Below, piece by piece: positions 8,817-59,017 of a DNA stretch of 64,000 nucleotides. Numbering within the stretch: the stretch's first letter is position 1; every line of letters starts with the position of its first letter. The translations under genes were made by a program, and so were the position numbers. Source of the DNA: Isoetes taiwanensis (Eukaryota; Streptophyta; Lycopodiopsida; Isoetales; Isoetaceae); contig JAJEKV010000515.1 of NCBI GenBank assembly GCA_021234155.1, positions 99,156 through 163,155 of the forward strand, in the 5' to 3' direction. The notes beneath the pieces are model-generated. The model did not search any database. It worked only from the letters and a program-made list of their open reading frames with translations, and was not told the DNA's origin.

Positions 8817-9552
8817 TTGTATTTTGCATAACGTGATAGCTTACTAAAATAACAATTAAAATTGGAAGGCATGAAACTATTTGATATGCCGGGACATTTG
8901 GGAAGGTATATGTTTTAGATAGTAATCATGTATGGCTCATTAATTTGATAATGACAATATTTCATAATTTCAATACCAATGTCATCTGATGAGATATGAC
9001 GTGCTATCATTCCAATTCTTCGCTACTTTGTGACCATATCTTGTGTGCAAGACAATGCTACACTAGCTTCTTCTGCAATGGTTCCTTTTGCCTTTAATGT
9101 ACTTGGGTCTGCCAGCTGTATTGGGAAAGATAACGGTTATAATGATGGTTGGATGCATGTTTCACTTAAAAAGAAGGCAGCTCGACAAAAATGAGCTCCA
9201 GCAATTCATATTGGCGATCTAGAATCATTGTATTTTGCATAATAAATCGAGACTCCCAGAGTAACTGCGGGGAGGGACTATTTTTCCTCTAGGTTTTAAA
9301 CCTGTACCTCGGATTAATGTATTTATTTTTCATGATGAGGGGAGGTAAAAATATTATTCTATTTATTCCAGTTTTCTTTTTTTTTTTCCCGTGGAAAAAA
9401 GTTTGTTCATGTTCTCCTTAATGTGTGATACATAAGATATTCCTAGTTTGATAGTTTAGGCTTGTATATGCAAACCTTTATATCATCAATTTAGCTCAAG
9501 CTTATCGTCTTGAATATTTTGATCACCTAATTTCCCTATTCATATTGGTAAA
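8817..9552. other. AT-rich intergenic DNA, no gene seen
   Basis: Unique sequence right of the tandem array. It has no open frame of convincing composition and no RNA gene I can identify. It ends in a pentanucleotide microsatellite. Confidence 0.5.
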
Positions 9553-9617
9553 CTATTCTATTCTATTCTATTCTATTCTATTCTATTCTATTCTATTCTA
9601 TTCTATTCTATTCTATT
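9553..9617 (+). repeat. (TTCTA)n microsatellite
   Basis: About 13 uninterrupted copies of TTCTA. Its reverse complement, AGAAT, forms another microsatellite at 18112-18148. Confidence 0.97.
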
Positions 9618-10645
9618 GGTTGTCAGATAGACTCAACGTTAGCAAAAATGAGGCTTCATATGCAACTATAATGCGCCATATGTATTTGGATCTGTTATAC
9701 TTTCATTTCTTTTGTTACAATTATCAAGGCATCCTAGAATTTAAGCGCCATAATTAACCACTAATGAATCACTATAGATGTGGTTTTTTATGCAACAAAA
9801 ATTAATCTTAATAAGAACCACAAGTTATAGTGGCTTTGACGAGTAATATACGGTTATTCATGCTGGTTTCCTATTGCAACATGGTTTGTTACGATTGTTA
9901 ATGGTTTCTCGCATGGTTTTCATGTTACTTTGTTGATGCATGCATGGGTTATCCTATTGTTTAAATTTGGTTTTTCCGACAAGTGGAAAACCTTTTTGGA
10001 ATTTTTTCTAAGATGGTTTTGTAAGGTCTGAAGGCCCGATGTTCCAAAAATTTAGAAAGCATTTTTGTGCAATTTCAAATGGTTTCGATGTTGCCGGATT
10101 TAGGAATTTTTCAGATGAAGCTTCCATCCATGCGTCGTCATTCTGAAGCATGCACCACAGGCTCTGACTACTATGGTTAGGGTTGTGGTATTATGTTACT
10201 CTTTTGTATTCAGAGCTACGGGCTGCCACAGGGGATGCATTCGGTTGCCCATCAAGAGGTATGCGCAATCTAGAAGATTTGCTTGGATCAATTTTTCTGC
10301 AGCACGGCATGGGAGCCGCTGGGATCTTCCAAAGCCATGGCCGCCGTTGCCCATATAGCGTTATTAGCCATGGTAGCCCTCTTGGAAAGGATCTTAGATT
10401 GTTGTGCACTCCTGGATATGGAGCAGTGTAATATTGTGTACACGTGAATGGCCCGGCAAATGACTATTTGGCCGGTGAAATTACATGAACCGCTAGCTCC
10501 ACAGCAGAAATGCTCCATGTTAATTCAGACTGATTCTATTTTCAATAGCCGTCTATTCTGGTATGCTCAATCTTATTGTTCTATTTTCATTTTCTTATCA
10601 GGTTCTATATCCAGTTAAAGCAAGATATTTCTGAGCATCTCTGCT

Positions 10646-40230: not shown

Positions 40231-41852
40231 TGTGTGTGGACTCCTCCCTGCTAAATATATGGGCGTCAGGTATACTCGGCAGGAAAATCCCCGTCAGGCT
40301 CAAGCGTCCGCACAAGCCCTTCGTCTACCCCGCACTCACGAGGTGATCCTAGTGCGGGGAGGGACACGAAGGTGTCTTGGCGCCTTCCCCTATGGGCTCC
40401 TAGATCGGGGGAAGCGACAAACACGTCGGAACTAGCATCAAAACATATAAATACTACCTCGAAGGGTAGTCCATCACACATATACCAATGTAAGAATGAT
40501 AATCATAAACCAAAAGCGTGATAGCTCCTACCCGGGCTCGGACTCGTGGGAGGATGACGGCCCGCTAAGCCTCAAGATAGAGCGGAACAGGAGTCATGGC
40601 AATGGCGAGGGGCTGGCATAATTTAATGGCTAGGGTTGACCACTCCATCCGCCCCTCCTGTGCATACTTTGCGGATGGGCTAGATCAAGCTGTGGCATGA
40701 CTCTAATCTTAGGATCACGCAATCCCATGGCATCACCCATCGGGACTACTCGGTTGCATCTCCACGGTCCGGCCCGAGGTAGGAAGGGTTGCATCTCCCC
40801 CCTTTCTTGGGGTCTAGAGGCTCCCGGGGTGGCTAGAGAATCGTGGCGACACCGCGATTGCATTACCCGTGAACCCCCAAAACAAAGCCAAGGCGACACT
40901 TGCAACTCTTGAGGGTGGCGGCACCATTGCCTCGGGAGGTGTCGGACCCATGCTCGGCCCCCGAGGTGACCGACCATAAGCCTAGCCCACTATGGGATCC
41001 CCGTAGCCCCCCACTTTCGTGGGGATCCTCCTCCATCTTGCCTCTAGCCCGTTGTGTAGTCTTTGAGTCACATCATAGCTTCCATAACCGGTGGGTTCCT
41101 ATGCCTGAGCGCGCAATTAATAGGAACTAAGGGATCTACACTAGGAGCATACTACATATGGCCCTAGGTCTCTACCCCCTTCCCAATACAAGAGGAGCAA
41201 CATGATCAACCAATATCACATACATCACATCATGATCAATATCATATGAATCATACATATCTAACTAACGATTAGGGTTCCTTGATTAGGGTTCAAGATG
41301 TTCAACAAGGATCTAGGGTGGCTCTACTCTAGACACAATTACTAACCCATATAGAGTGCTAACTTCCGGATGAACTAACATGAACTCTACTCAACCTACC
41401 TCCTCGAGGCGCTTCCTCCCATTCCTGGCGTCTCCATGCTCCTTGGCGTGGGTGAAGGCTTGCTCCCTCTACGATCATCATACACACCTTCCGGGGCTGC
41501 TGCTCCGGGCTAGACTATGACGAGCGGTGCTTAAAGCGGGGTTTGCACGCGTGGAGTGAGTTCAGTGCTAGGTAGGAAAAAGGGTCTAGGGTTAGGGTTA
41601 GAGCCAATATAGGTGTGGGTCCACATGGGATGCCACGTGGCACCACTAGGACGAGGCCGTGTGGCGGTTGCCCAATACGATAAGGCCATGTGGAATTGGG
41701 CCTTATCCTAAGGTTATCTAAGTTAAACACTTAACTTAGATGTGCACCCCTTGCCACTTTCTAAGGCATACAAGGCTACATAGGTAGACTTGTATGGTGA
41801 CGGGTCCAGGAATATACGTATTTATGGCGTATATTCCCCTGGGACGATCACA
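40231..41852 (-). repeat. 3' LTR
   Basis: Begins (minus strand) TGTGATCGTCCC next to the PPT and ends next to the GCTTG duplication. Direct repeat of 57387-59017. It contains a short telomere-like run (tagggttagggttagag) near 41585, also present in the other LTR. Confidence 0.92.
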
Positions 41853-41863
41853 TTCTCCCCTAA
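41853..41863 (-). promoter_or_regulatory. Polypurine tract (PPT)
   Basis: TTAGGGGAGAA on the minus strand, immediately 5' of the 3' LTR start TGTG; preceded by GAGGACAAAGATTGTCC, the typical lead-in in plant Ty3/gypsy elements. It primes plus-strand cDNA synthesis. Confidence 0.85.
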
Positions 41864-42714
41864 GGACAATCTTTGTCCTCAAACATTGCTAAAGGTGACG
41901 AGCCTAATCTATCCCTGCAAAACAATACAAGAACATACACTTAAATTTAAATGATCAACTTCCTATTAAAGAGTTAAATGTCAAAATTTAGGCTATATTT
42001 GTACTTATACAAAATTATATAGCCTTAACAAGGTTACTTCTTACAATAATTCAAAATGTTATTATAAGAGTTATTAGGGTTCATAATCTAAATTATGGTT
42101 CCCCATCTTCTCGAATCGCCCCACCTCGATGCTCACTTCTCACTTTCACGCACAAGGAGCACATTACGTTAGTTTAATTAATAAGTTTGTGGTTTTGGGG
42201 ACCACCCCCTTACCAATACCTTGCACTCGATCATGGCCCTTTCGGATTTGAGCTTAAGGACCATTTAAGATGATCCCATCATCGCCCATGATCAAGTGCT
42301 ACCTTGTACTCGGTTACCGGTGCGAAAGTACCCCTAGTGCATCATGCCCCAAGGGTTTTAAGCTAGGAACGTCTCACGATCCCATCATCGCGACATGATC
42401 ACTTTGACCTTCACCATGACCCCTATGGCGGTGTGCGAACCCGCGATCGTGGCATAGGGAGCATCCGACCGATGTCCCATCATGCGCACACTATGCCTTA
42501 CTTCTCTCTCACCGCATGACCATATTGGTCATGCGACCTCTTTGGTGCATGTTGGCCTAGAGAACGCCTTTAAAGGCTTATCTCATCATCGCCCACATGT
42601 TCCAAGATTCGCGCATATGTATTCCACTAGCTAGAATACATCCGCGAGCTAGAGGCTAACTAAGAACATACTAAGCTAACCTCGGCAAAGTCGGGTCGAC
42701 CAAGTGAGAGCGAC
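41864..42714 (-). other. Element 3' untranslated region
   Basis: Between the chromodomain stop and the PPT. No open frame of note on either strand. Confidence 0.6.
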
Positions 42715-42850
42715 TTCGCCCATCAAACTCCTTCATAAATTCTGGGTATTGTTTCTCCAAATCCCCGCTTCAATACCCATGTCGTCTTTCCGTGCAAGTG
42801 CTTCCACTTGACCAAATCTTTGGAGGCGAGACCTCCTAGTCTTCTTGAAT
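42715..42850 (-). pseudogene. Chromodomain at the C-terminus of the retroelement polyprotein
   Basis: Frames read KDLVKWKHLHGKTTW, then in another frame EKQYPEFMKEFDG. This is the LVKWKG-x-xTWE...FPEFxxxF core of chromodomains that chromoviruses use to bind histone marks during integration. The upstream CD arm (about 42850-42960) is harder to read. Frameshifts split it. Confidence 0.75.
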
Positions 42851-43199
42851 GACTTATCAAGAAGTAACTTCAGGCACAATTTCGACTGCTCTTCCGTCAT
42901 TTCCAACAAAGTTGGAGTATCCAAGACCTCCTCGGGGTTAGGATTGTGCCTTTTCAATAAACTTTACGTGGAAAACCTTGTGAACTTTTGAGATGGGCGG
43001 AAGATCCAATTTGTAGGCTTGGGAGCCCACTCTCTCCAAAATCTTGAACGGACCAGCCCACCGAGGGGCAAGCTTCTTGCAACTCCCAATCGAAGCTTAG
43101 CTTGCTTTTTACCTTGATCTTCAACCACACGCTTATCGCCTACTTTGAACTCCCTTACGGCCCCAGGCTCTGCTTGGCTACACTCTTCTCGCCGACTTC

Positions 43200-44023
43200 T
43201 TCTTGCTGCTAGGAGGTAACCCCCTTACTTCTTCCACTAGCTGCTGCATATCTCCTAGCATCCGCTGGGATACCTCAACCTTTGACACGGGATTGTGCCA
43301 AGTATCGGGGGTTAGGCAATGGTACCCGTAATTTACCATGAAAGGAGACATCCGAGATGACTCTGCTTGGCACTATTGTAGGCTTAATTCCACCAAGTAG
43401 ATGTACTCATCCCACTTGGACTGCTTATTCCACACAAAGCTTCTAAGCATATCTTCAATGATTCGATTCGTCCTCTCCTCCCGACCATCCTGTTTGGGGG
43501 TGATATGCGTGCTCATGGAGAGCTTCGTGCAATGGTGCTAAAGAGGTCCTGCCAAAAAGCACTCATAAACTTAGAATCTCTGTCAGATATTATCTCCCGA
43601 GGCATGCCATGGAGCCTAAAAATCTCCTTTACAAATAACTTGGCGGTATCTAATGCGGTGTCCGTAGTCTTACAAGGCACAAAATGTGCCATCTTAGATA
43701 GCTTGTCTCGACAACCATCAATGCATCCTTGCCTCGAAGAGTTTTGGGAAGTCTGTTATGAAATCCATGCTTATGACCTCCCACTTAGCATTTGGCCCCC
43801 AAAGGCTCTAAGGCACCTGGAATCGAAGTTGCTCGCTTTGGTTTCTTTGGCACAACTGGCACTCCCGGATATATCTTGCTATCTGCTTCTTCATTCCCGG
43901 CCAGAAGTAGCTACTTCGAATCTTGAAGTAGGTCTTCATGAACCCTGCATGCCTTGCTATTGGGCTGTTGTGTGTGTCATGAAGAATTAGCTTCCTTATA
44001 CACTGGACGATCGGGGGACACAC
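43200..44023 (-). pseudogene. Integrase (zf-H2C2 plus catalytic core remnants)
   Basis: 44023-43808 contains HDTHNSPIARHAGFMKTYFK, the H-H part, and ARYIRECQLCQRNQ, the C-C part, of the zinc-binding integrase N-terminus. Further on, pieces of the DDE core are readable: [10 protein letters not shown], then ITPKQDGREERTNRIIEDML, equivalent to the HPQTDGQ-ER-N---ED-LR motif with the catalytic Glu nearby. Several frameshifts and stops. Confidence 0.85.
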
Positions 44024-44084
44024 AATTTGTCCTTATGGTATAACAAGTTGCCTTCCTTCTTATAATGCCCGAAGGCTTCGTTCC

Positions 44085-44610
44085 TTATCTGATTTCTAGC
44101 CTCCTGAGAGACTTTCCCATACCTCTTTGAAATCTCCATCCGATTAGGGTCTCCTCGATCTTCTTACCAAACTCACTTTCGAAAGAGTGGGAGATCGCAT
44201 TACAATGTGTTCTCGTCTCAAAGGGTCTTCTAGAAAGAGCATCAGCAACCACATTCAACTTACCTGGCTTATAAGCAATCTCAAAATCATACTCTTCTAG
44301 GAATTCCATCCACCTCCTTTGCCTTAGATTGAGGAGCGGTTGGGTAAAGATGTATTGGAGGCTCTAGTGATCAGTATCTAACTGAAACTTCCTCCCAAGC
44401 AAATATTGCCTCCAAATCACGAAGAGCTCGACAATAGCTAGAAGTTCGATCATGGGTTGGATAGCTGCTTCGGTGTCGTTCAACTTCTTGGAATCATAGG
44501 CCACTACTCTTCCTTCTTGCATAAGGACTCCACCGTCCGCTATCTTACTTGCATCTGTTGCTACTATCTTGTCCTTGTCCGGATCTGGCGGAGTAACTAG
44601 CACCTGGGGC
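44085..44610 (-). pseudogene. RNase H domain
   Basis: 44603-44364 reads VATDASKIADGGVLMQEGRV, then VAYDSKKLNDTEAAIQPMIE, the first Asp/Glu block of Ty3-type RNase H. 44309-44220 reads [20 protein letters not shown], then RRPFE, the linker to integrase. A stop separates them near 44370 (LDTDH followed by TAG). Confidence 0.9.
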
Positions 44611-44879
44611 TGTTGTTAAGGATTCCTTAAGCTTTTCAAATGAAGCTTGAACATTTTCTAGCCAATGTGTTCTCCAATCTTTCACCTTAACACTCTTAGT
44701 GAGGTCCGTCAAAGGGGCGCCACCTGGCGAAGTCCTTCACGAACTTTCTATAATAACACCTGCCAAACCTAGAAAGCTTCTTACCTCCGCCACATTCTTT
44801 GGAGCTGGCCAATCCACTATGCCCGATCTTTATGGGTCGGTGGAGATCCCTTCGCCCGATATGACATGGCCCAAGTACT

Positions 44880-45610
44880 CCACTCTTTTAGTAGCAAAGT
44901 GGCATTTGGAGAGCTTTCCATACAAGCGATATGCCCTCAACTTTTTCCAACACTCTTCTCAAATCTTGACCATGATCTTCAATGGACTTGTTTGAGACTA
45001 GAATGTCGCCGAAGAAGACAATGACAAACTCATCTAGGAAATCCCGATGACGCCGATTCATGAGGCGCATGAAAGTTGCTGGAGCATTCGACAATCCAAA
45101 GGGCATTACTGTAAACTCAAAGTGACCATACCGCGTTCTAAAGGCGGTCTTATGGATATCCTCTTCTTTTATTCTTATTTGGTGGTACCCTGACCTCAAA
45201 TCAATTTTAGAGAATACCTTTGCTCCTTGGAGCTGGTCCATTAAATCATCACGCCCTTGGCAATGCATACTTATTCTTTTATCGATGCGCTTGTTGAGTC
45301 GGGCGATAGTCTATGCACATTCTTAAGCTCCCATCTTTCTTCTTCACGAAGAGTATAGGTGCTCCAAAAGGAGACACACTTGCTCTAATAAAGCCAAGCT
45401 CAAGCAATTCTTGGAGTTGCTTCTTAAGCTCAATCAATTCGATTGTGCTCATTAAACGGCGGCCTTCTTGGTAGGCTTTGCATCCGGAGCTAATGTGATC
45501 TCACATTCCACGCCCTATAAGGTGGTAGCGCCGGATTTCATCCGGGAATACATCCTTGAATTCCGAAATGAGCCTTGCTACTGGCTTGGGCAACTGATTC
45601 CCCTTTTGGT
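44880..45610 (-). pseudogene. Reverse transcriptase domain
   Basis: Recognisable blocks: [83 protein letters not shown] and the catalytic strand [12 protein letters not shown]. The usual second-site motif is Y/F-I/V-D-D; here it reads F-F-G-D, so one catalytic Asp is missing. Frameshift near 45270. As given it could not polymerise. Confidence 0.93.
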
Positions 45611-45739
45611 CGCTTCCATCCCCTTATTGGGTTCAATTGCCTCTAACCTCAAAATGTAATCCACCTTATTTCTTTCTATACTTTTCCTTAGCTGCTTCAA
45701 AGAAATACACCGCATAGAAGAAGCCGCCTTCTTACCTTT

Positions 45740-46080
45740 CACTATGAATTTGGTGATGTCCGGTCTTTGTCATGGCGACTTCATTTCCATCCCGCGGTCG
45801 ATCATGGCTTTCGCTGGCTTTAGGAACTCCATTCCTACTATAAGGTCATACCTTCCAATTTCCATGACCTCTGCCCCCATCGGCCACTTACTTCCACTAA
45901 GGTCTATGTCGAATGTGATCCTCCTCCCCTTAGTGTGCGAATGGCCGTTTGCCATAGCAACCGGGCCTTGGCTTAGACTTCAATACCTTATTCTTCATTA
46001 GGGCAACCAGCCTAGGAGGCGGTTGTGAGAGCTACTGTGTCTATGAGGACTACATATGGGTTGCAATCTATGATTCCATC
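45740..46080 (-). pseudogene. Retroviral-type aspartic protease
   Basis: VVLIDT at about 46050 is the start of the active-site triad; the third residue is lost by a frameshift (next frame gives SSHN). Downstream, GRRITFDIDL, EIGRYDLIVGMEFLKPAKAM and RGMEMKSP match the flap and the second conserved segment of Ty3/gypsy proteases. Confidence 0.75.
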
Positions 46081-46109
46081 AGCCGCAATGATTTGTCGAC
46101 GTGATTTTT

Positions 46110-47447
46110 AATGTCACGACTCAATATTTTTTTTGGATATGGCACTCACCATCTATGAAGTCACGGGCCTCATGCTTGGTCGCCGTCTTCATCATGCTTA
46201 CGCGGTGAATCCCAATCCCCAAGCTCGCCAAAGCTGCTCGCATGACAAATGGGCAATCATGTGTTTGGTGCCCTGGCCGAAGCACACGAAACATAGCTTC
46301 TTCTCGATACACTCTTGTCTCTTCTCTTTTCGTCGTGATCGCCTAGAAGACGCTTTTTAGCACGCTGCCCCTGCATTTGCATTCTGCGGCATCACGATCC
46401 CCAAAGGTCTTACCACGAGCTCTTCCCCTCTTCTTTGGCCTCCCGATGGCGTAAGGCCGATTGCTTACTAAAATGCGCCCCTTTGCACGATTGACTTTCC
46501 CTTGAAGGCCATTTGTTTCTCCACGGCGTTGGTGGAGCTTCTTCCAAACTTATGGCTTTATCCCTACGCCACTGATTTTGGGTTGATTGCTCGGACTAGC
46601 CTTTTGATATTTTTGTTCAATCCCTCAATGTAAGTTTCAACCGCTTGCCTTTAGAAACTCGGGAACATGGAGCCCGAATCGCATGAATTCCTCTGTGTAC
46701 TTTGCTCTTGACAGGGGTACCTTGGTTCAATCGTAGAATTCTTTGGATAAATACGCTAGTATGTGACCTAGGCACATAATATCCGGAAAAGGCCTTCTTT
46801 GAAGGTCTTGAATGCAACTTCCTTTTGAGCTTGTTGGACTTTTGTGTAGCCTTTCCACCAAATTCTAGCTGCTCCTATCAAGTTTCTTGTAGCAACCTTC
46901 CCTATATCCTTGTCCTTCATGCCATAAGAGTTGCCAAACTCCTCCATTTAAATCAAGCCAAGCTTACGCCTCCATATTTTGTCCTTTCACGAGAACTGAC
47001 CCAACTTCCTAGTCTTCCACACATTGCTCATAGCAGCGTCAACTTTCTTTTGATAGTCATCGCCTTCCCTTGCCCTGGGCTCTTATGCGTGAAGTATCGG
47101 ACTCACTTTGAAAGCTGGAACTGTCTTTGGTTAATAAAAGTGTCGATGAAGCTGGAGCTAGGTGGTGTTGGAGTCATTCGCTTTCTCCTTTTCCTCTTCT
47201 GTCTCGACATTTCCACTCGATTGTCTTGCCCCTCCTTTTGTGGACCTTCCTCGATGCCTTGCTGAGGTAGTGGTGGAGGTGGAGGTGGAGCAGGTGCATA
47301 TTCTTGGGCATTCATCAATGGGGTGGCCCAGTGGATCAGCTGATGCATCTGATTCCTCATCTGGACGAGCCTTGCGTTGATTGCTTCCGGCGTCATTTCC
47401 TCGTTGATGTCATCTTGATCACGCCCAAATAGGTTTCGGGTACCCAT
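46110..47447 (-). pseudogene. gag (capsid region and CCHC zinc knuckle)
   Basis: Starts at MGTRNLFGRDQDDINEEMTP (47447), with a proline-rich stretch and a basic RQKRKRRKR segment. The middle part is broken into short frames. Near 46290-46250 it reads CFVCFGQG and, one base shifted, QTHDCPF: together a C-x2-C-x4-H-x4-C zinc knuckle for RNA packaging. Multiple frameshifts. Confidence 0.75.
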
Positions 47448-47767
47448 TTGGTGATGTCGGCCCCGCCTTGAGAACCTGAGCGGTGTTCCTTGCTACAAGG
47501 ATTAATCATCAATGCTTGTTATTTAAGTCACACACTAATCATTCTTGCTTACAGTTGAATTGTTGTTAGGTACAAAAGAAATTATGTGAAAATTCCACTT
47601 ACAAGTCAAGATCATAGTAAGACATTAATTAGTTAATACATATAGAAGTACATGATACTGACTGAAGGGAGAATATTTTTTTCAATACAATTACTTAATT
47701 GTCAAAACATATTTTCCTCAATGGTGCCTCTTCATGGACTTGAAGAAGTTCTTCACATTCTTCAATC
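47448..47767 (-). other. Spacer between accessory ORF and gag
   Basis: AT-rich, about 320 bp, no open frame; may hold the leader of a gag transcript. Confidence 0.45.
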
Positions 47768-49250
47768 CTATCCCCTTGCCGACGTTCTGCCGGATTCTTG
47801 CCGCCGATCCTCCTTCCAATGCTCTTGCCATCTGAGGTGCCGGAAGTTACAGTGCGCGATTGCCACAACCATTGACAAGTGTGCATCCCTGAGGTGGCCC
47901 CTTGCGAAGTCGAGAGCATGAAGTGCTACGGATCTCTTGAAGAGGATTACATTGTCTACTCCATAATCTATCTTGGCATGTTGTCCAAAGCCTGAGAGTG
48001 CTATGAGGAGCGCCACGGATTCTTCTCCTCTTGGGCTGAACTCCTTGTGAAAAACTACCATCTGCCCTTGGCTAAGGACCGGAAGATAGTACCGAAAGTG
48101 ATTTATCCCCGCCTCGCCAGCGGTTCCCGTACCTTTCCTCCGAGAAGCCCGGCGAGGACGACATCTAATGCGAAGAGATCTTCGTGGCCCCTCCACATTG
48201 TTGTTGCGTTCTCTCCGGATTGATCTTGCTAGATGCCTCGCATGCTCATAGAGCGACTGGTCGACTTGAGCTTGGACCTCTTCCGGCTTGTACAACCTGC
48301 TTTGGATCTCCCGGAATTCCTCTTCGGAATGGACGGGTTCTGCTTCTGATACATCTGCCTTATCATTTGGTAAGCTTGAATGTCCGACATAGTTGCCCCC
48401 GTCGTAGGAATGTCATTTCGGCTACCTCCCCTTGGAATTTCTTGGTAATCATAGTCGATGAAGTCGCTGCCCTTTGTTTCTTTTGCAATTAGGCTTAGGA
48501 GCTCATCGGTCCTGAGACCTTCTTCTTGACAATAGGGAAGGTTGAGGATGTCGTGGGCGAATATGTACTCCTCGCCGTCGATTATCACCGAAGTCAAGGC
48601 CGTGATACCAATTGGCGGTTGAAGTCTCGCCTTAGTACTTCTGTTGCGGGCGGGCGCCTCTCCATCCTTCTTGCCTCCCTCCTCTCCCAACTTGGGTTCT
48701 CTTCCTCTTCCTCTTCCTCTTCATAATCCTGCTCAATCTGCAACATAGGTGTCCCTGATGTGGAGCCGTAGTATTCGTACTCCGTAGCCTCGATCTCGTG
48801 AATGTCTATCTGTGTCCTCCGAGTGTCGAGAGGTGCCAAATCCAAAGGTTGAATTGACGTATCCCTTGGTTGGTTAACTGCCTTGTACTGCATGAACAAA
48901 GCTAAGGCTGCTTGGTTTGAGAAGTATCTATGCCTATGATGCTTACAGGTCATATAATCTGGCATGTTTCTGGTTCTATCCCACAACCTATTCTTGGTCT
49001 TAGATCCCCCACCTATGGCTTGGGACAGAGAGTCTAGAGAAACCCATTTCCCTCCCCTAGGTGGCAAACTAACTTCCCAGGGTAGGATCTGCTGGTCATA
49101 TTGGCAAATGATGTCGGTGTAATAGGGAGTTTTAGTCAAGGTGGCATGAAGATCAAAGAGATGGTCAAAGACATGGAAGGCTTGCTCAGCAAGGAGATCA
49201 CGGATGTGATTGGCCTCATTGTACCATCTAACAAAGCTTGATGGCGCCAT
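47768..49250 (-). CDS. Accessory acidic protein inside the retrotransposon, function unknown
   Basis: About 490 codons in three overlapping frames (49250-48594, 48690-48229, 48295-47768), in the same sense as gag-pol. It begins MAPSSFVRWYNEANHIRD after a CT-rich leader with TATAAAA at 49361-49367. The first third has aromatic and His-rich parts (KHHRHRYFSNQAALALFMQY); an acidic run DYEEEEEEEENP follows; then EEYIFAHDILNLPYCQEEG; then a coiled-coil-like and basic part (PEEVQAQVDQSLYEHARHLA, SIRRERNNN). I do not recognise the family. It is not gag, pol or a typical envelope: no signal peptide or membrane span is seen. The frame changes coincide with overlapping long open frames, so sequencing indels are likely. 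Confidence 0.6.
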
Positions 49251-49360
49251 TGAGCAGAGATAGCTATGAAAAATGGTTTGTGAGAATGAGCAAGGAGCTA
49301 GAAAATCGCCAAAAGGGCTGGAGAGAGCAGTTTTGATGGGGAAATGACAAATGAGGCCCC

Positions 49361-49367
49361 TTTTATA
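49361..49367 (-). promoter_or_regulatory. Putative TATA box of the accessory ORF
   Basis: TATAAAAG on the minus strand, about 111 bp upstream of the ATG at 49250, followed by a CT-rich leader. It implies independent transcription from within the element. Confidence 0.5.
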
Positions 49368-49529
49368 GACTAGGGATGCCTCGGGTTCCGTGCATAAGGG
49401 TTCTTGATGGGGAAGCCTTCTGTTCTATGGCTATGGGTGTCCAAATGAGCTACCATGAAGTGCGAACCTAAGCAAAACGAAGCAAGAAACACTACATGAC
49501 AGTTTGTTGGGTCAATTTTGGGCAAAAAT

Positions 49530-49822
49530 GGGCGAAACCGGGTGGCTATGCGAAAATAAGCTCTGCGTGGAGAGCGCTTGAGAGGGTTTTTTAAGACACG
49601 CGACGACGATTTCGGGTCTTTTAGATTTCTACCAAAGATTTCAGGAAATTTAAAGATACTAGCATGATTATTTGGACAATTCTGACTTAACTAGGAACTT
49701 TTCCTGAGCTAATTGGGTATGATTTGGCCTCGAAATAGCGAAACCGGGTGGCTATGCGAATTTAGGCCTTGCGTGGAGAGCGCAGAGGGGTTTTTCGCAC
49801 AACGACCCGATTTCGGGTCTTT
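49530..49822. repeat. Duplicated 90-bp block in the element
   Basis: gcgaaaccgggtggctatgcga, gcgtggagagcgc and gatttcgggtctttt appear in the same order at about 49532-49622 and 49738-49822, 206 bp apart. They lie in the noncoding stretch between the accessory ORF and the H3-like ORF (49251-50026), which otherwise holds no gene. Confidence 0.8.
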
Positions 49823-50026
49823 TGGTCCGAATTTTGACTAATTTGACTAGGGTACTTTACTAATTTAACCTATTTTGATCCCTACAATCATGATGGCTAA
49901 CACTAAACTAGAATTTGAACAATCTAAACACATCTTCATACAAAAATCAAAGTCAATTTGCAACAAAATTTTATATTTATAGGGGGGAAATTTATCAACT
50001 ACATTAATTTACACAAAATTATATCC

Positions 50027-51148
50027 TCAAGGGTATTCCTTGCGGATACGGCGCGCCAAGTATAAGTCCTTGGGCATCAGCGTCACCCTCTTCGCATGGA
50101 TTGCGCAGAGGTTTCCTTCCTCGAACAATTGGGTGACCTCGGCCTCCGGCTTCGGCCAAAGCACTCTTGTCGTGAGGGGCGTCACCACATGTCGGTGGCG
50201 AAGTCCGTGCATCACCTCCCGCATAAAGCGCTCGAAGGTGCCTTCCTAATCGGGGAGATTAGTGCTTTGTTGAAAGTGCTTAATCTCGAAAAACTTCGGG
50301 CATGCCTAGAGTTTGGTCCGTGGTGGACCTTCTTGGGCTTCTCCAGTCGTGGCGGCGGTGGCTTTTGGGCTGGTTCTTTGCTGGCCCCCCCTTCACGTAG
50401 CATTGGACGTTCTGACGGCAGTACCAGTCGTTGTACCTCGTCCAACGACGGAGGTATTCTTTGTATGCCTTGAGGCGTCCCGAAGAAGGCGCTCCTCCTT
50501 CATGAGCGATTCGCTCGCCCTTATACGCTTCTTGACCACCTTAGGTGGCTTGGGCCACTTCGGGTAAGGTGGTCTTGCGTCGGGTTTGAGGTCTCCCCGG
50601 CGACTGGCCGTCGTCCTCCTGTTCTTCCTCTTCGTCTCCTCCTCCTTCTTCCACCACTTCCTCTTCTTCGTGTCGGGGAGGCTCCTCGATCACTACGGTC
50701 CCTCGGGGCCGATCGTTCCTCCTCTTGGTTCTGCGCTCCTCCTCCCTAAGCTCCCGCTCTCGCTCCCTCTTCTTCCGTGAGGCTTGCTCTTCCGGCCACT
50801 CTGCAACCTTCTCCTTGCCCTTCTTCTTTGGTGCCGAAGGGCCCGCCTCTTGAGTTTGGTGCTGGGGCTACTCTTCCTCCTGCTCCACTTCCGTGTTCGG
50901 CGAGGGTCCAAAGTGGCGGGACTCGCCGGTTCTCTGGGTGCCCGCCGACCGAAGAAGAGCTGCTTTCAGCTGGCCTCCTCTTAGGAGACGTGGAAGGTTT
51001 TCGGCCGCCGCTGTTGCTGGGGAACTCCCCTTCCCGGCTTAGGTGAAGGTGTTGGGGATTTGCTTAGTGTGCCCGACCTACCGCTAAGGCTTATCATCGA
51101 GGCGTAGGCCTCTCCCGACCTTCTAGTCATGCGCTTGGTTCGAGCCAT
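50027..51148 (-). CDS. Histone H3 / CENH3-like protein with long charged tail, carried by the retrotransposon
   Basis: From ATG at 51148 it reads [20 protein letters not shown] is the canonical H3 N-terminus. A long tail follows: basic and proline-rich, then Lys/Arg/Glu-rich ([19 protein letters not shown]) and acidic ([20 protein letters not shown]). The C-terminal third is a histone fold: [11 protein letters not shown] (alpha-N), [13 protein letters not shown] (alpha-1), [20 protein letters not shown] (end of alpha-2 and loop 2), then [19 protein letters not shown] and TGA. EIKHFQ-STNL and VTLM-KD resemble CENH3 more than canonical H3. Start and stop are in the same frame (374 codons) but the tail shifts frame at least twice, and two in-frame TAGs lie near 50240-50310; parts of alpha-2 appear to lack a short CTGCAG-like piece. 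Same sense as gag-pol, with a leader and an AT-rich TATA-like stretch near 51240. Normal plant CENH3 is about 150-190 residues; this is twice that. Confidence 0.85.
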
Positions 51149-51398
51149 ACTTAACGGTGTGGAAAATGGATGACGTAAGGCTGAGCAAGAGAGATGGTGG
51201 AGGAAAAGGTTGGTGGGAAAATGAGGTGTCAGGGATATTTAAAAAGGAGGGTCCCTGGGAATATTCCCTACCATTAATAGGCCTACTTATTAGCCCCCCT
51301 TATTAATTACACCATAGTACCCTTATTATTAATATATATTTAATTTGAATACCCATACTTAAATTCGTATTATCTTATATTATAATGTTATACCGTAA
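51149..51398 (-). other. Leader/upstream region of the H3-like ORF
   Basis: CT-rich leader on the minus strand with TTTTTAAATAT near 51235-51246 as a weak TATA candidate. It ends at the 16-bp repeat taatgttataccgtaa (51383-51398). Confidence 0.45.
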
Positions 51399-54300
51399 GT
51401 AGTGAACCGCGCCCTAGATCGGGCGGTCGACATTGACTCTTTGATTATGCGATCCACGATCGGTTAAAAAAGGGCAAAAAAAAAAGAGCTAAAATAAAAC
51501 AAAGAAGGGCTTTTCGTGATCAAGCTGCGGCAGATCTGGCGAAACTCCCGCTTGGCAATGGTGGCTCGAGAGGGGCTTTTGTGACTCTTGGCAGAATCTG
51601 GCGAAACTTCGCAGCAATGGTGGCTCAGGCTTCTTCTTTAGAACCCTAGCTGCGCACAGACCGCTCAAGCTATCAACAAACTTGGAAAGGATTTGGGGAG
51701 CTTAACCTCCTAGAAGCACTTACATTTTCACCAACCGCAGAGGAATTTAAGGACCTTTTAGGTTTCACATTCAAAATTCATTACAGGACGAGCTTTGCAA
51801 TACGTCGATCGAGAAAAGGGTTTTTATTTTCACGGGAACGCCTTTGTCACAAAATGGGGACCAGCTCAAGAGCTCTCCTTTTTGGGCCTTATTTCTTATT
51901 CTAAAATTCTAAGAACGCCATTCACGTGGTTGTCTACTCGGTAACGAGCCCATTGAGTCCAAGTTGCTTGATCATATGGCCTTTTGGAAGAAATTGCATG
52001 TGCCCGAGGTCTTTCTTGAAAAGCCAGGTTGTTGAGATGGTGATGATTACACGGCTGAGATCCACGACATCACATCGGAAGGTTCAGGTTTGTCTGTAGG
52101 TTTCTTCTATTTTTCCTTTTAGGTAGTGTCATGTTTTCCTCCCGCTCTTATGCGCACATTCTATTGGGGCTTTCTAATGGGCTTGGGCTCCGAGGCAAAA
52201 AAATGCCGGGTACACTTTGTGTAACGGAGCTGCCATTGTATATTTTCCTTAGTACCCAAAGGATGAAAAGCTGGCGGACGATTCCAATATGTGGCCTTAG
52301 AATCATGGCGAATCTGCTTTTCATGCCAATCGGGCTTGCTTTTACTAAAGGTTGAGAACTAGCGATGGTAAAACCATTAAAATCTTGACGAAAGCCACAG
52401 ATATCAGTCTGGTGAATAGAAATTAAAGTTGAGCCGTGAAACTTTGAAATTATTTGGTTACATATCTCAATCTAAGTTAACATTCCCAACTATGGATGGG
52501 CGTCGATGTACAAATGCGGTTAGAACATCAAATCGAAATGTTTCGAGGTAATAATCGTTTCGCTTTTATGTTGGGACATAGGGCTCCTTGGCAATCTGGT
52601 ATTGTGCGTGTTGTAGTAGAGGTTATGATGGCGGATTTGATTTCCACAAGGCTCCAAGTTGGATGAGCGGATTTTAGCGGTAGCTGCAATGCTCATATGC
52701 GGGTAGGGCTCCAAGTTGGATGGCGGATTTTAGCAGAGCTGCTTGATATCTTTGGCATGCCATAGATGTTTACGAGATTATATTGTATGCAACACATTTG
52801 CCGTGCATGGAATATTCTTAAAAGGTATGGTTTCTCAGATCCCTTTGTTGTCATCTTCTCTAGAAAATTTAGTTTAGAACCTCTCAATTGCTTTAAAAAG
52901 ATGGTTGTGGCTCTAAGAATACTTGCTGGTATGGCATCCGCCACCAAAGAAAAGTTGCAACAATGAGTATATCTATTGCCAATCTATTCCTAGATTTCAT
53001 GAGCATCTATGTTTACTTGCTCGTAAATTTGTCACTTCTTATGATGGCAAAGTCGCGTTGTTATAGGATTAAGTTGATGAATGGACCCGCACCACATATA
53101 GATATTGGACGCCATGATTGCGTGTAGTGATGGGCACACCGGACAATGGACCAAAGCTAAGGGGGAGGCAATGTGGCAATGTACTCACGAGTCTAAACTT
53201 TATTTGAACACCTCGGACAAAAGCAGAGTATAAGCCGTATGAAAAAAAAAAAGAGGCAACAGGAGATTGCAAGAAGCTATTATAAATAATCTTAATTCAA
53301 GTATCTCTTAGCATGTACTTTGTATTTCTTGCATGTATTCATTTTCATCTGTTCATGTAGGATTGACTCTGCAGCACACAGTTGGAGTTCCAACCCAGAT
53401 AGTGAACCAAACAATTTCAAAGTGGTAATACATTTTTGAACGCTTAACAATCTATAATTATCATTTCATATTTAGCAATCAAACGCACGTTTGCAACTAA
53501 TCTTGCATTGTTTAGAGGTTCTCAATACTTCCATAATACGAGATTACCAAATGGGAAAGGTTGAATGTAGCTTATAGCTATTATGCCGAAGGACTTTGGA
53601 ATTGTGAAGGTATAAAATTGTGAAGGTGAGGGACTTTGTTGCGTTATTTTATTCTTATTATATAAAGTTACAAATTGCATAGATTGGGCTTAAGCGTATA
53701 AATTTTCATATATAATTGGGTTATTTATCAAGAAACCAACCGAGCTACAAAATTGAGAGATTTGTGCACCGGCCCAATTGCTTGAGAGTCCTTTGTACCA
53801 TTATGTAGCATTTTGTAGCAGGGCCAGAAGCAATGAAAGGGATCAAGCCAGTTAGTCTATGGTTTTCATTCACATTCTTTACAAGTGGATTGCAATTTAT
53901 TTAAGGAAGCTAAAAGTAGAGGGCATTTTGAATTAATGAGACTGTATTTGTATTACTTTATAGTCCTTGATACATTGTTAGAATGTGTTACATGGAACAA
54001 TAGAGGGAGCTTTCTATGTGATCATGATAGGGCATCCAATCCGACCATGTGGAGAATTACATAATATAATTTGCTCTTATCAGAGATTGATTGCTTTCAT
54101 TTGCAGCAGCGAGGAATCGCTTAAAACTTCGTAGCTTTGAAGACCACGGTTATTGTATTGTACATGCCTTATTTTGAAGCCTTTGGAAAGGGTCAACGCT
54201 TGAATAACACATTGTGGTGGATAAAAGACAAAACTCCACTATTACGTGCACTAGCAACTTTGGAATTGCTTAGAGATTTCAATATTAAAGTTAGAACTTG

Positions 54301-55098
54301 GAAAATTGAATTGTTTGTGATGGATAAGAACATCTAAGCAATTATTTATTTCAATAGTAGAGAAAACTCCACTATTACGTGCACTAGCTATACAAAAGTA
54401 GAGAACTTTGGAATTGCTTAGAGATTTCAATATGAAAGTTAGAACTTGGAAATTTCTCATTATATAGATTAAATTGTTTGTGATGGATAAGAACATCTAA
54501 GCAATTATTTATTTCCATGTAGCCTTTGCTGTGGAAGAGAGTAGGTGAGCTCACATGTTAATGGAAAATAATGGATGCAACTTTGTTTTAAACACTGACT
54601 TTTGCCATGTTGACCATATAATTCTGAACACATCTTATACTTTCAACATTCTTACTTGCATTTTCATTTTAATCTGTTGGTATTGCATCTATCTCAGGGC
54701 ATCCAGTTTGGTTTTACTCTTTGCAGCAAGTTCCTAGGTTAGAAAAGAAGGTAGTCTGAATGCTTCATAGACAACATCCTTACAACATCCTTGGTGTGAG
54801 TGCAACTTTAAGACAACAGCCATTCCTAGAGCATGACAGGTGTCAATGCAATCTAACAAAACATACCTATTTCTAGAGCATCAAGCAAGGAAAAGAAAAG
54901 AAACATATCAACAAAGGCATACTCAAAGAGCATCGAGCATCAAATCAATGCTATGCTTTGGGATACATAGCATCGATTCCCAAGAACACTGCGTTTGGAT
55001 ACAAAAGTTGGACTATTACTACACGCTTTTCTCATTTTGGCCAAAACATTTACGGACTTGCAATTATGCCCAAAGAACGCCGGGCAATCTGTTACTAG
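51399..55098. mobile_element. 3.7-kb insert flanked by a 16-bp direct repeat, with hairpins at both ends
   Basis: taatgttataccgtaa occurs at 51383-51398 and 55099-55114. The DNA between starts GTAGTGAACCGCGCCC...GGGCGG (a hairpin) and ends GCCC...GGGC-AATCTGTTACTAG (a hairpin plus Helitron-type terminus). The ends are thus roughly mirrored. No transposase or RepHel frame was found; only short open frames. It contains partial duplications (ctccaagttggatg near 52651 and 52710; 54232-54520). Either a nonautonomous element, or a Helitron whose junction arose by template switching at a 16-bp repeat. Confidence 0.5.
54232..54520 (+). repeat. Tandem duplication, about 130-155 bp
   Basis: Both copies run actccactattacgtgcacta, gaactttggaattgc/aactttggaattgc, agagatttcaatat, gttagaacttgg, then gtgatggataagaacatcta and gcaattatttattt. 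Confidence 0.92.
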
Positions 55099-55099
55099 T
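55068..55099 (+). mobile_element. Helitron 3' terminus B
   Basis: TGCCC aaagaacgcc GGGCA hairpin followed by atctgtta and CTAGT (55095-55099), then A. The last 80 bp resemble 56963-57036 (cttttctc, ccaaaacattta, gcccaaagaac), so both ends belong to one family. Confidence 0.7.
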
Positions 55100-55228
55100 A
55101 ATGTTATACCGTAATTCTTGGATTGGATCAAGCCCTAATTTGAATGTTCGAGATCATCTGAGTGCATCCGAAGGCCGAGATTTATTGAACGACTTACCAT
55201 CACCATGATTGGTCATACTTTGATCTCT

Positions 55229-56960
55229 TAAGGGGAAAGGGTAAAGGAAAAAGGGGGGAAAGGAAAAGGGAAGAGACAAGAGAGAATGTGAAAATAAAAG
55301 GCCTGAGGAAAAGGGAGAAAAGCAAAGGGAAAAGGGTGGGGATAAGAGAAGAGAAAAAGACATGAAAAAATGAAAAGGGAAAGAAGAAAGAAAAGGGAAG
55401 GGGGAAAAGGTACCTGGAGAAAGGGCACGAGGGAAAAGGGAAGAGATAAAGTGGTAAAGGGAAGAGGAAAGGGCACGGGAAAAAAAGGAAGAAGAAAAGA
55501 TGAAGAAAGTGGAAAAGGGAGGAGAAAAAAAAACATGGAAAAAGGGAAGAAAAAAAGGGCATGGGAAAAGGGAGAAGAGCGTTGAAGAAAGAGGAAAAAG
55601 GAAGGGGAAAATGGCATAGGAAAAGGAAAAGGAAAGGAAAAGGAAAAGGAAAAAGAAAAAGAGAGAGGGAAATGGAGGGAAAAAGTGCATCGAGAAAAGG
55701 GGAAGAGTAAAAGGTTGGGAAAATGAGGAAGAGGGAAGGGAAAAGGGAGAACAAGAAAAGGATGGGGAGAAGGGAAGAAATAAGGGAAATTGAGAAGAAA
55801 AAAAAAAAGGAAAGGGAAATGGGAAGGGAACCTAAAAAAAAGGCATGAGAAAAAGGGAAAAAGGTAAACAAGAAAAAGGGAAGAGGAAAGGGCTTGAGAT
55901 AAAAGGGAAGAGGAAAATGGCGGAGAAATAGAAAAAAGAAAAGGAAAAAAAAAGGGGGGAAGAGAGAAAGGGTGGGAAAAAGAGGAAAATGAGTATAGGA
56001 AAATAAGAAAAGAAAACAAATGTGGAAAGGCATGGGAAAGGGGAAAAGTGAAAAGGAAAAGGAAAGGAAGGAAAAAGGGCATGAGGAAAGGATCGGGAAA
56101 GGAGAAAAACAGGAAAAAAAAAATCCATTAGGAAAGGGAAAAGGGAAGGGAAGAGGTGGAACGAGGGAAAAGGGGAAGAAAACATGAGAAAAGGAAAAAA
56201 AAAAAAAAAAAGGAAGGGGAAAAGAAGAAAAAAAAATCATACGGGGAAAAAGAGAAGTGGGAAAGGATGGGAAAAGGAGGAAAAGGAAAGCATAGGAAAA
56301 ATAGAAAGAAGAAAGGGGTGGAAAAAAAGGGAAGGGAAAAAAGAAAAGAGAAGAGAAATGGAAAAGAAAAAAAGGAGGGAAAAAAAGAAAAAAGGGGGAG
56401 AGCGACAGAAAAAGGAAAAAGAGGAAAATAGGAAAAGGAAAGAGAAAAAAGGGAACATAGAAAAAAAAAAAGGGAAGGGAGAAAGGGTGAGGAGATGGGA
56501 AAAGGGAAGGTAAAAAGGGCATGAAAGCGGGGGAGAGGAAAAAGAAAAGGAGGAGGAAAGGGCACCCAAAAAAGGAAGAGCGAAAAGGCTAGGAAATAGA
56601 GGAAAAGATAAGGGAAAATAGGCATGGAAAAAAGCGAAAGACTAAAAGATTGAGGAAAAAGGGAAGGCATGGAAAAAGGGTGGGGAAAAGAGAAGGCATG
56701 GAAAAAGGTGAAGGGAAAGGGAGAAGAGCATGGAAAAAGGAGAAGAAGGAAAGGGTGGAAAAAAGGAGGAAAAGGAAAGGGAAAAAGGTTATCGAAAAAA
56801 GGGAAGAGGGAAAGGAAGGAAGGGGTGGGGAAACAAGGAAACATATGAAAAAAAAGCGGAAAAAACTAAAAAGAAAAAAAGAAAAGTGTATAGAAAATAA
56901 GAAAAAGTAAAAAATACGGGATAGAGCAAAAGGGAAAGGGAAACGAAAAGGGAAAGGTAT
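55229..56960 (+). repeat. 1.7-kb homopurine tract ((G)GGAAAA-type minisatellite)
   Basis: Almost only A and G on the plus strand, built from variants of gggaaaagggaagaggaaaa, with a recurrent gggcatg about every 60-150 bases. The long open frames on either strand here are by-products of low complexity, not genes. It lies inside the LTR element, between two Helitron 3' ends. Confidence 0.97.
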
Positions 56961-57007
56961 AGGGCTTTTCTCCTCTGACCAAAAACATTTATAGGCTCTC
57001 AACTTAC

Positions 57008-57036
57008 GCCCAAAGAACTTTGGGTACCATTACTAG
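57008..57036 (+). mobile_element. Helitron 3' terminus A
   Basis: CCCAAAG aa CTTTGGG hairpin, then taccatta and CTAGT (57032-57036). It has the same flank as terminus B 1.94 kb upstream. Confidence 0.82.
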
Positions 57037-57370
57037 TACCTTTAGAATTTCAAATTTCCTAATAGTTTGAAGTGTTAATTATGGATTTGTGCCATTTTTC
57101 ACTCGGTCTCGATTGGCATAATTCTTGACCCATTTTAGGTGAAATTTGATGCGGATGCATAATTTTCACTCCAATTTTACTAGAAGGTGAATTTGACTCA
57201 TTCATTCCTTCGCCTAACACTAACCTAATTTCGGACCCACTACCTAGGAGAAAAATTTTTCCCTATTTTCAAGCGGTTCAATGGTGGAAATTTTTATTTC
57301 ACACCCTTATAGGCCTGTTAGACTACTTTTTCATGGTCATGGTCGCTAGTTCCCTGGTCAACCAAGAACA
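57037..57370 (-). other. 5' leader of the LTR element
   Basis: Between the Helitron end and the PBS. No open frame. This is what remains of the original leader next to the 5' LTR. Confidence 0.5.
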
Positions 57371-57386
57371 TCGCCTCGATACCATT
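57371..57386 (-). promoter_or_regulatory. Primer-binding site, initiator tRNA-Met type
   Basis: Directly after the 5' LTR end (…ATCACA) the minus strand reads A-TGGTATCGAGGCGATG. TGGTATC followed by GA(G)GC matches the TGGTATCAGAGC complement of plant tRNA-iMet, apart from the CAGAGC/CGAGGC change at a CAG site. Confidence 0.85.
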
Positions 57387-59017
57387 GTGATGCTCCTCGC
57401 TAAATATATCAAGGCCCGCCATATTTTCGGGCTGAAAATCCCCCGGCTCAATCGTCCGCCCCAAGCGGGCCCTTCGTCTACCCCGCACTCGAGGTGATCC
57501 TAGTGCGGGAGGGGACACGAAGGTGTCTTGGCGCCCTTTCCCTATGGGCTCCTAGATCGGACGGAAAGCGACAAACACGTCGAACTAGCATCAAAACATA
57601 TAAATACTACCTCAAGGGTAGTTCATCACACATATACCAATGTAAGGATGATAATCATAAACCGCGAAAACATGATAGCTCCTACCCAGCTCGGACTCGT
57701 GGGAGGATGACCAGAAGCTAAGCCTCAAGATAGATAGGGCAAGAAGTCATGGCAATGGCGAGGGGCATAAGACAATGGCTAGGGTTGACCACTCCATCCG
57801 CCCCTCGGTGCATACTTTGCAGATGGGCTAGATCAAGTTGTGGCATGACTCTAACCTTCCTGGGATCATAAATCCCATGGCATCACCCATCGGGACTACT
57901 CGAGGTTGCATCTCCCGGGTCCGACGAGGAAGGGGTTGCATCTCCCTTTCCGGGGTCTAGAGGCTCCACGAGGCGGCTAGAGAATCGTGGCGACACACGA
58001 TCGTGCACCGTGAACCCCCAAAACAAGAGCCAAGTGACACTTGCAACTCTTGAGAGGCGGCGGCACCATTGCCTCGGGAGGTGCCGGACCCATGCTCGGC
58101 CCACACGAGGTGACCGACCATAAGCCTAGCCCACTATGGGATCCCCAGTAGCCCCCTTTCGGGGCAGGATCCTCCCTCCATCTTGCCTCTAGCCCCGTTG
58201 TGTAGTGCTGAGTCACATCATAGCTTCCATAGCCCGGTGGGTTCCTATGCACAGGCCGCAATTAATAGGAACTAAGGGATCTACACTAGGAGCATACTAC
58301 ATATGGCCCTAGGTCTCCCCCCCTTCCCAATACAAGAGGAGCAACATGATCAACCAATATCACATACATCACGCCATGATCAATATCATGTGAACATCTT
58401 AACCTAATCATACATATCTAACTAATGATTAGGGTTCCTTGATTAAGGTTCAAGATGTTCAACAAAGATCTAGGGTGGCTCTACTCTAGACACGAATTAC
58501 TAACCCATCTGGAGTGCTAACTTCCAGATGAACTAACATGAACTCTACTCAACCTACCTCCTCCGTATGCTTCCTCCCATTCTCGGGCGTCTCCATGCTC
58601 CTTGACATGGGTCGAAGGCTTGCTCCCTCTACGATCATACACACCTTCCGTAAGGCCGCCTTTGCTCCCAGGCTAGACTATGATTGAACGGTGTTCTAAA
58701 GCGGGGTTTCGGGCACGCAAGGAGAGTTCAGGTGCTAGGTGGGAAAAAGGGTCTAGGGTTAGGGTTAGAGCCAATATAGGTGTGGATCCACATGGGATGC
58801 CACGGGCACCACTAGACGAGGCCGTGTGGCGGTTGCCCAATGACATAAGGCCATGTGGAATTGGGCCTTATCCTAAGGTTATCTAAGTTAAACACTTAAC
58901 TTAGATGTGCACCCTTTGCCACTTTCTAAGGCATACAAGGCTACATAGGTAGACTTGTATGGTGACGGGTCCAGGAATATAATGTATTTATGGCGATATT
59001 CCCTAGGACGTCTGCCA
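57387..59017 (-). repeat. 5' LTR
   Basis: Direct repeat of 40231-41852. Termini are TGTGATG... on the plus strand side and ...CTGCCA at the outer end, where the other LTR has ATCACA; the outer end abuts the GCTTG duplication. Confidence 0.92.

Follow-up and report, generated by a model that had tools for sequence, protein, structure and literature searches.

A chromodomain LTR retrotransposon lineage of Isoetes taiwanensis carries a histone H3-fold protein as its first open reading frame

The core histones described so far come, to our knowledge, from cells and from some DNA viruses. The H4 of bracoviruses, for instance, is presented in the accessible part of its description as a virus-encoded core histone whose tail matters and which alters host expression (PMC5423620). 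Such DNA-virus histones resemble the proteins reported here in that a parasite encodes a core histone with an important tail, and differ in that the carriers are DNA viruses and not retroelements (PMC5423620 and PMC9145170, as far as their accessible parts go). Within the accessible text of the viral-histone review, the strings "retrotransposon" and "retrovir" have 0 occurrences (PMC9145170). Among plant LTR retrotransposons, some families have additional ORFs (aORFs) that are kept in all or most copies, according to the available portion of a review from which the word "histone" is absent (PMC7264820); the elements analyzed here also keep an additional ORF, which encodes an H3 and sits before gag. 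The precedent nearest in kind that we found, judging by the available part of the article, is that of orchid Ty3/gypsy elements carrying an ORF for an ALKBH5-like m6A demethylase (PMC9289625). In both cases a giant plant Gypsy element has taken up, as an additional ORF, a regulatory protein of its host; the orchid protein, as that part describes it, is an enzyme acting on RNA, whereas the Isoetes protein is a core histone found in at least four diverged clades. The text of the Isoetes sinensis genome paper does not contain the word "histone," and a search of the open-access literature by title and beginning of the abstract found no description of a histone-encoding retroelement, in line with the preliminary description of the present locus, which knew of no retroelement with an H3 or CENH3 ORF.

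Plant Ty3/gypsy chromoviruses have TG..CA LTR ends, 5-bp target site duplications (TSDs), a gag-protease-reverse transcriptase (RT)-RNase H-integrase order, and a chromodomain. The Isoetes elements are alike in these respects and differ by the addition of two to three sense ORFs before gag, the first of which is the H3. Here, we show that a chromodomain Ty3-type LTR retrotransposon lineage carries an H3-fold protein as its first ORF (ORF1), in at least four clades, and has spread with it, and we consider it practically certain that this Isoetes genome contains a conserved H3 that is element encoded. If a retroelement lineage maintains a histone gene under strong selection in at least four clades, this would represent a new way for a mobile element to act on the chromatin that controls it. 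The elements offer naturally occurring H3 proteins whose tails have been replaced, and they make it testable whether parasites can alter silencing by supplying the nucleosome itself.

The window, i.e., the whole stretch of 64,000 nucleotides analyzed (contig JAJEKV010000515.1 of the I. taiwanensis assembly GCA_021234155.1), contains a decayed Ty3-type element at 40243-59010 on the minus strand. Its features, in the order of the element, are the following.

57393..59010, minus strand: 5' LTR of ca. 1.6 kb, 87.7% alike to the copy at 40243-41845 (1664 aligned columns); repeat families D1 and D3-D8
57373..57384, minus strand: primer-binding-type site TGGTATCGAGGC, adjoining the 5' LTR
55200..57000, no strand: GA/CT-rich low-complexity tract between the 5' LTR and ORF1
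50027..51148, minus strand: ORF1, a broken H3 frame that opens with MARTK and has a long charged tail ahead of the C-terminal fold; from frame reading and relatives
50030..50287, minus strand: H3 fold part of ORF1, without interruption at 50245-50030; Pfam Histone 3.2e-13; 41-43% versus the ORF1s of other clades
47771..49250, minus strand: ORF2 homologue in pieces (N part 49250-48597, C part 48412-47771), from the match to ORF2 of locus L023
46200..47447, minus strand: gag region; 47070-46567 is 37% versus L023 gag-pol, and the piece tested was under the Pfam cutoff
44145..45599, minus strand: end of the protease, RT, and RNase H; RVT_1 4.9e-21, with pieces aligning to the pol of L023 and L024
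42689..44143, minus strand: integrase and chromodomain region; Integrase_H2C2 4.5e-20, aligning to L024 pol up to residue 932
40243..41845, minus strand: 3' LTR, pairing with 57393-59010

The position of the H3 frame between two LTRs, with a primer-binding-type site, was thereby confirmed, and so was its gag-pol sense, since proteins of intact relatives could be aligned along the window, first the C end of ORF1, then ORF2, gag, RT, RNase H, and the region of the integrase and chromodomain. The two ends of ORF2 matched the L023 protein separately (E values of 3e-7 and 7e-9). The chromodomain of L024 pol (residues 869-916) falls inside the stretch aligned to the window; in 42957-43139, the sole window piece tested for it, the Pfam chromodomain was not found. 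The element had been called complete, which holds for its anatomy and not for its intactness, because the H3 copy is broken by stops and frame changes. On the minus strand, ORF1 begins at 51148, the fold ends at 50030, and the frame as given, which extends to 50027, contains seven stops, and the good reading shifts frame; the open piece 50245-50030 matches solved H3 chains with an E value of ca. 2e-13. The leader measures 6.2 kb versus 0.7 kb in L024, extended by the 55200-57000 tract and by 51.2-55.2 kb. Spurious minus-strand open frames of up to 440 amino acids (aa) occur in the GA/CT tract, and similar ones were seen at locus L022.

Taken by itself, the broken window copy would suit a passenger, that is, a retrocopy of a host H3 that some element picked up on one occasion and that has decayed ever since. 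The relatives of the window H3 tell otherwise. It matches 149 other scored places in the genome at 69-77% identity, and an uninterrupted relative (L053) has an open frame of 378 aa that starts with MARTKQTGRKF and bears the fold (EIKHFQQCTNLLIRKAPF...) at its end, for which reasons the window H3 is not a product of chance. The tail of this relative is 292 residues long, 53 of them acidic and 61 basic. When the genome was searched with it, 109 places were scored (itself included) at 77-100% identity, of which 93 aligned from residue 1, 74 had no internal stop, and 60 were stop-free over residues 1-378. As most of these places are open and align from residue 1, the MARTK start and the long charged tail read from the window's letters are real.

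Searching the assembly (1,658,258,908 bases in 1110 contigs) in six frames with the Pfam Histone family, we scored the best 150 of 8704 first-look candidates. At fifteen of these 150 places the match begins with the second position of the family, a property of host H3, and the eight read among the fifteen proved to be ordinary H3 genes. Six host-type H3 genes lie close together at ca. 2.98-3.28 Mb of contig C1025 and at ca. 70-122 kb of contig C445; the four of these six that were read each encode an ordinary H3 of 136 residues. An open frame of at least 390 codons was present at 38 of the best 150 places, and in all 20 of the long-frame places taken for reading, a long ORF1 ended with the H3 domain or shortly after it (exceptional in shape were L014, where the frame continues past the H3, and L017, without a start). 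Long "histone H3" or "CENH3-like" genes annotated in lycophytes may be genes of such elements. Downstream of ORF1 we found ORF2 at most of the loci read and a third small ORF at many, followed by gag-pol, some of them with insertions; an RT with at least 100 aligned residues was recovered at 13 of the 20 loci, the one of L018 being only 32% alike. At L018, different retroelement-like frames (5848-9999) lie downstream of an open ORF1, probably as a nested insertion. H3 or ORF1 places number hundreds in the genome, many of them open.

By the start of ORF1, four clades were distinguished. MARTK comprises the window, L053, and L054; MPRFKL, 16 of the 20 loci (L011, L017, and L028, with a variant or missing start, included); METVKQ, the other 4 of the 20; and MANTK, one locus read (L052). 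In the clades other than the window's, the H3 is fused to an orphan domain of ca. 200 aa (the N domain). Pfam Histone scored 2.7e-42 to 4.6e-42 in three intact ORF1s. The search for other copies in the same genome, proposed in the preliminary description, thus found many of them, many with open ORFs, and the outcome it had named as speaking against capture, other family members without the ORF and with neutral decay, did not occur; an H3 gene forming part of a chromodomain LTR retrotransposon is supported.

Selection was assessed by pairwise Nei-Gojobori comparisons among ORF1s, excluding L017 and dropping pairs with saturated or very small dS. The median omega of the H3 core was 0.034 in MPRFKL (103 of 105 pairs) and 0.025 in METVKQ (6 of 6), and that of the N domain was 0.11 (60 of 105) and 0.144 (6 of 6); the 20 ORF1s had been picked from the top Pfam scores with long open frames, which biases dN downward in the core and less so in the N domain. 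For the linker the medians were 0.197 (MPRFKL, 90 of 105 pairs) and 0.081 (METVKQ), and for the H3-tail region 0.089 (83 of 105) and 0.224. Pooled over the kept pairs, pN/pS was 0.062 and 0.034 in the core and 0.203 and 0.215 in the N domain (MPRFKL and METVKQ, respectively). In the window's clade, the one pair compared (L053 versus L054, picked by likeness to the window) gave pN/pS values of 0.022 (core) and 0.132 (tail). Judging by these ratios, the histone fold is under strong purifying selection, which the preliminary description had suggested looking for and which is present in the ORF1s compared. Chance capture followed by decay is thus refuted as a general account by the number of places, the open frames, and the selection; with most window-clade places free of stops, an omega of ca. 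0.03 in the fold, and at least four diverged clades, we give the passenger explanation practically no credence.

The hallmarks of transposition were clearest in three elements of the MPRFKL clade spanning ca. 13.2-13.4 kb by their coordinates. In L024, the LTRs are 91-92% identical, the 5' LTR is directly followed by TGGTATCAGAGC, ORF1 starts 0.7 kb further on, and the TSD reads ACTGC/ACCGC. The LTR pieces of L023 are 96% and 100% identical (TSD GTGGC/GTGGC) and those of L028 93% and 99% (TSD ACAAA/ACAAA). The primer-binding-type site TGGTATCAGAGC was found in L012, L023, L024, and L028, and was looked for in L027 and not found; we take this site, like its window counterpart, to be that of the initiator Met tRNA. 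As no LTR pair was seen at L012 and L027 within the stretches fetched, LTRs are established for the MPRFKL clade (these three elements) and the window, and in neither METVKQ nor MANTK. Domains of capsid, protease, RT, RNase H, and integrase were recognized in the gag-pol of L023, and the pol of L024 (6853-9696) has RVT_1, RNase H, H2C2, and rve (just under the cutoff) followed by a C-terminal Chromo domain (3.3e-9). Classification as a Ty3/gypsy chromovirus thus rests on the LTR pair, primer-binding site, and TSD in L023, L024, and L028 and on domain order and chromodomain in L024. A host gene or pseudogene would be expected outside mobile elements; in these three elements and in the window, LTRs flank the H3, and the spacing of H3 and RT places described next likewise speaks for an element gene.

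The association could also be seen from the side of the RT. Among the best 150 of 31305 RT candidates, 44 were preceded by an H3 or ORF1 place at a distance of 2-9 kb on the same strand, versus 1 and 1 in the controls (downstream and other strand), and in 32 of the 44 it lay at 4.8-5.4 kb. Because most candidates were left unscored, 44 of 150 is a lower bound, and the fraction of elements without an H3 is a different quantity. The comparison used 309 H3 or N-domain entries: 135 of the 150 Pfam Histone places (the 15 host-type ones omitted), 124 of 150 from a second H3 search (omitting mainly host H3 and repeats of earlier entries), and 50 of 150 N-domain places, the others of which were simply not entered. 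The N domain, searched for in its own right, gave 2790 candidates, of which the best 150 were scored and 13 loci were read (the 8 best, with the L023 and L024 elements among them, and 5 of lower rank). At 11 of these 13, located by the N domain alone, an H3 lies downstream (two of the 11 being L023 and L024 again), and at L048 and L050 no H3 was found within 1.5 kb of the N domain.

Within the MPRFKL clade, RT and ORF1 distances are correlated (Mantel r of 0.77, 0 of 9999 permutations, nine loci), and less so over all 12 loci (r of 0.32, 260 of 9999 permutations). The RTs of L009 and L011 differ by 1.9% and their ORF1s by 17.9%, and the RT of L027, which belongs to METVKQ, is 7.4% apart from that of L009. 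Since these three loci combine similar RTs with very different ORF1s, ORF1 seems to recombine with a shared pool of pol, the 5' genes being exchanged between elements.

The H3 of the window had been described as centromeric-histone-like. A few CENH3-like residues (HFQ, TNL, and TLM) are indeed real in its clade, some of them in alpha-N, and together with the MARTK start they are what would favor a centromeric-type H3 that steers insertion to centromeres or perturbs them. The fold itself lacks the loop-1 insertion of CENH3 and is nearer to canonical H3: it aligned to host H3 with a score of 164, ungapped from alpha-N to the C end, versus 134 and a two-residue gap in loop 1 for a provisional Arabidopsis CENH3 sequence. 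CENH3 identity was rejected on these two grounds, loop 1 and the scores. The other clades have a canonical alpha-1 and loop 1, and the best solved chains for L024 ORF1 are H3.3 and H3.1. Over 86 core columns, the MPRFKL, METVKQ, and MANTK ORF1s have 70-76 residues in common with host H3, and the MARTK clade has 54-55. Host CENH3 was not recognized among the best-scoring 150 H3 places of the genome; in a tree of the 86 columns built without an Isoetes CENH3 and with weak supports, Arabidopsis CENH3 stood apart from the element H3s. By fold and scores, then, the element H3 is of canonical type and not a CENH3, and with places spread over very many contigs, a centromeric role appears very improbable.

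In the same tree the element H3s grouped at a support of 84/42, which is insufficient for a single origin. By score, the window fold resembles host H3 more than it does the other element clades (153 and 147), so that a capture shared by all clades may not have occurred; one or several captures may lie behind them.

The residues kept by the element proteins bear on what the fold may be used for. All of the 23 ORF1s compared retain R69, R72, C110, H113, R116, T118, and D123, and 22 of 23 retain R63 and R83 (the exceptions being L014 for R63 and L054 for R83); C110, H113, and D123 are, we assume, residues of the H3-H3' interface, and R63, R72, and R83 are DNA contacts. Residue 87, presumably a site of chaperone choice, is F, H, or L in the ORF1s versus S or T in the host H3s read. 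Purifying selection and kept contacts show, at the level of the compared sequences, that the fold matters, the place of its use being a separate question.

In the tail, ARKS is missing from 22 of 22 ORF1s checked (among them L017, without its N end), and ARTK was seen in L053 alone. A general "mark-blind tail" (K9 to P) was considered and rejected: the STGGK-like motif has two feasible alignments, to residues 10-14 or to 31-34, and MARTKQTGRK is retained in the clade of the window. For these two reasons we restrict the claim to the absence of ARKS in the ORF1s checked, and, given the latter clade, loss of the K4/K9 context is not general.

We favor use in a nucleosome because the fold, with its H3-H3' interface and DNA-contact residues, is conserved far more strictly than other parts while the tail is replaced or lengthened, and a nucleosome is the simplest use that needs all of these together. 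The ORF1 protein would pair with host H4 and enter nucleosomes; its long N-terminal part, standing in for the usual tail or lengthening it, would set these nucleosomes apart from ordinary ones. Element copies, whether new or silenced, would then lie on chromatin that host silencing reads poorly; alternatively, the altered nucleosomes might be recognizable to the element's own chromodomain integrase or Gag. That ORF1 enters chromatin as an H3 variant acting against silencing or as a mark of the element itself has, in our judgment, an even chance of being right; the layout of ORF1-H3, ORF2, ORF3, and gag-pol (interrupted at some loci) is counted in its favor. Two other uses of the same fold have to be weighed against it. 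ORF1 could be a DNA-packaging protein that uses its H3 fold, perhaps together with host H4, to compact the cDNA of the element inside the particle or preintegration complex and to carry it to the nucleus, as its basic regions, kept DNA-contact arginines, and placement before gag might suggest; we regard this as unlikely, since binding of cDNA alone would not require the H3-H3' interface, yet C110, H113, and D123 are also kept. It could also act as a decoy, weakening host silencing by tying up H3 chaperones, H4, or histone methyltransferases without lasting incorporation, and a fold so near to host H3 (outside the MARTK clade), with residue 87 and the tail altered, would fit such a role; R63, R72, and R83 would then be free to drift and are instead nearly invariant, which makes a decoy decidedly unlikely in our view.

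Incorporation into nucleosomes might be part of a broader strategy, which we put forward tentatively and with less than even expectation. The lineage would build its own chromatin: an H3 variant with an effector tail would replace host H3 on element copies and block silencing marks, the chromodomain integrase would find the element's own nucleosomes, and, in an arms race against silencing by the host, the ORF1 clades would diversify and recombine with the shared pool of pol.

Both ORF2 and the N domain are orphans. ORF2 encodes ca. 440-490 aa between ORF1 and gag (L023, 6065-7474, and L027, 5984-7444, both on the minus strand), with a pN/pS of 0.139-0.285 among L015, L017, L023, and L028, all of one clade; pairs with L027 (0.42-0.50) were excluded as between clades. 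In 5.8 billion proteins it had one relative, P0121, at 39-42%, on an ENA contig of 3374 bases; P0121, folded alone, gave a pLDDT of 36.6. An IMG/VR scan with ORF2 gave 62 pattern matches, none a relative. The ORF1 N domain had no match at E ≤ 1 in the same 5.8 billion proteins, and the full ORF1 protein was covered to at most 49% among the best 120 of 4456 proteins found. No accepted Pfam match was obtained for the ORF2s of L023 and L027, the ORF2 pieces of the window, or ORF3 of L024. The third small ORF before gag has ca. 170 aa, with WARYKLVRAVRESVRY near its end, as seen at 4134-4649 in L024 and at 4183-4689 in L021.
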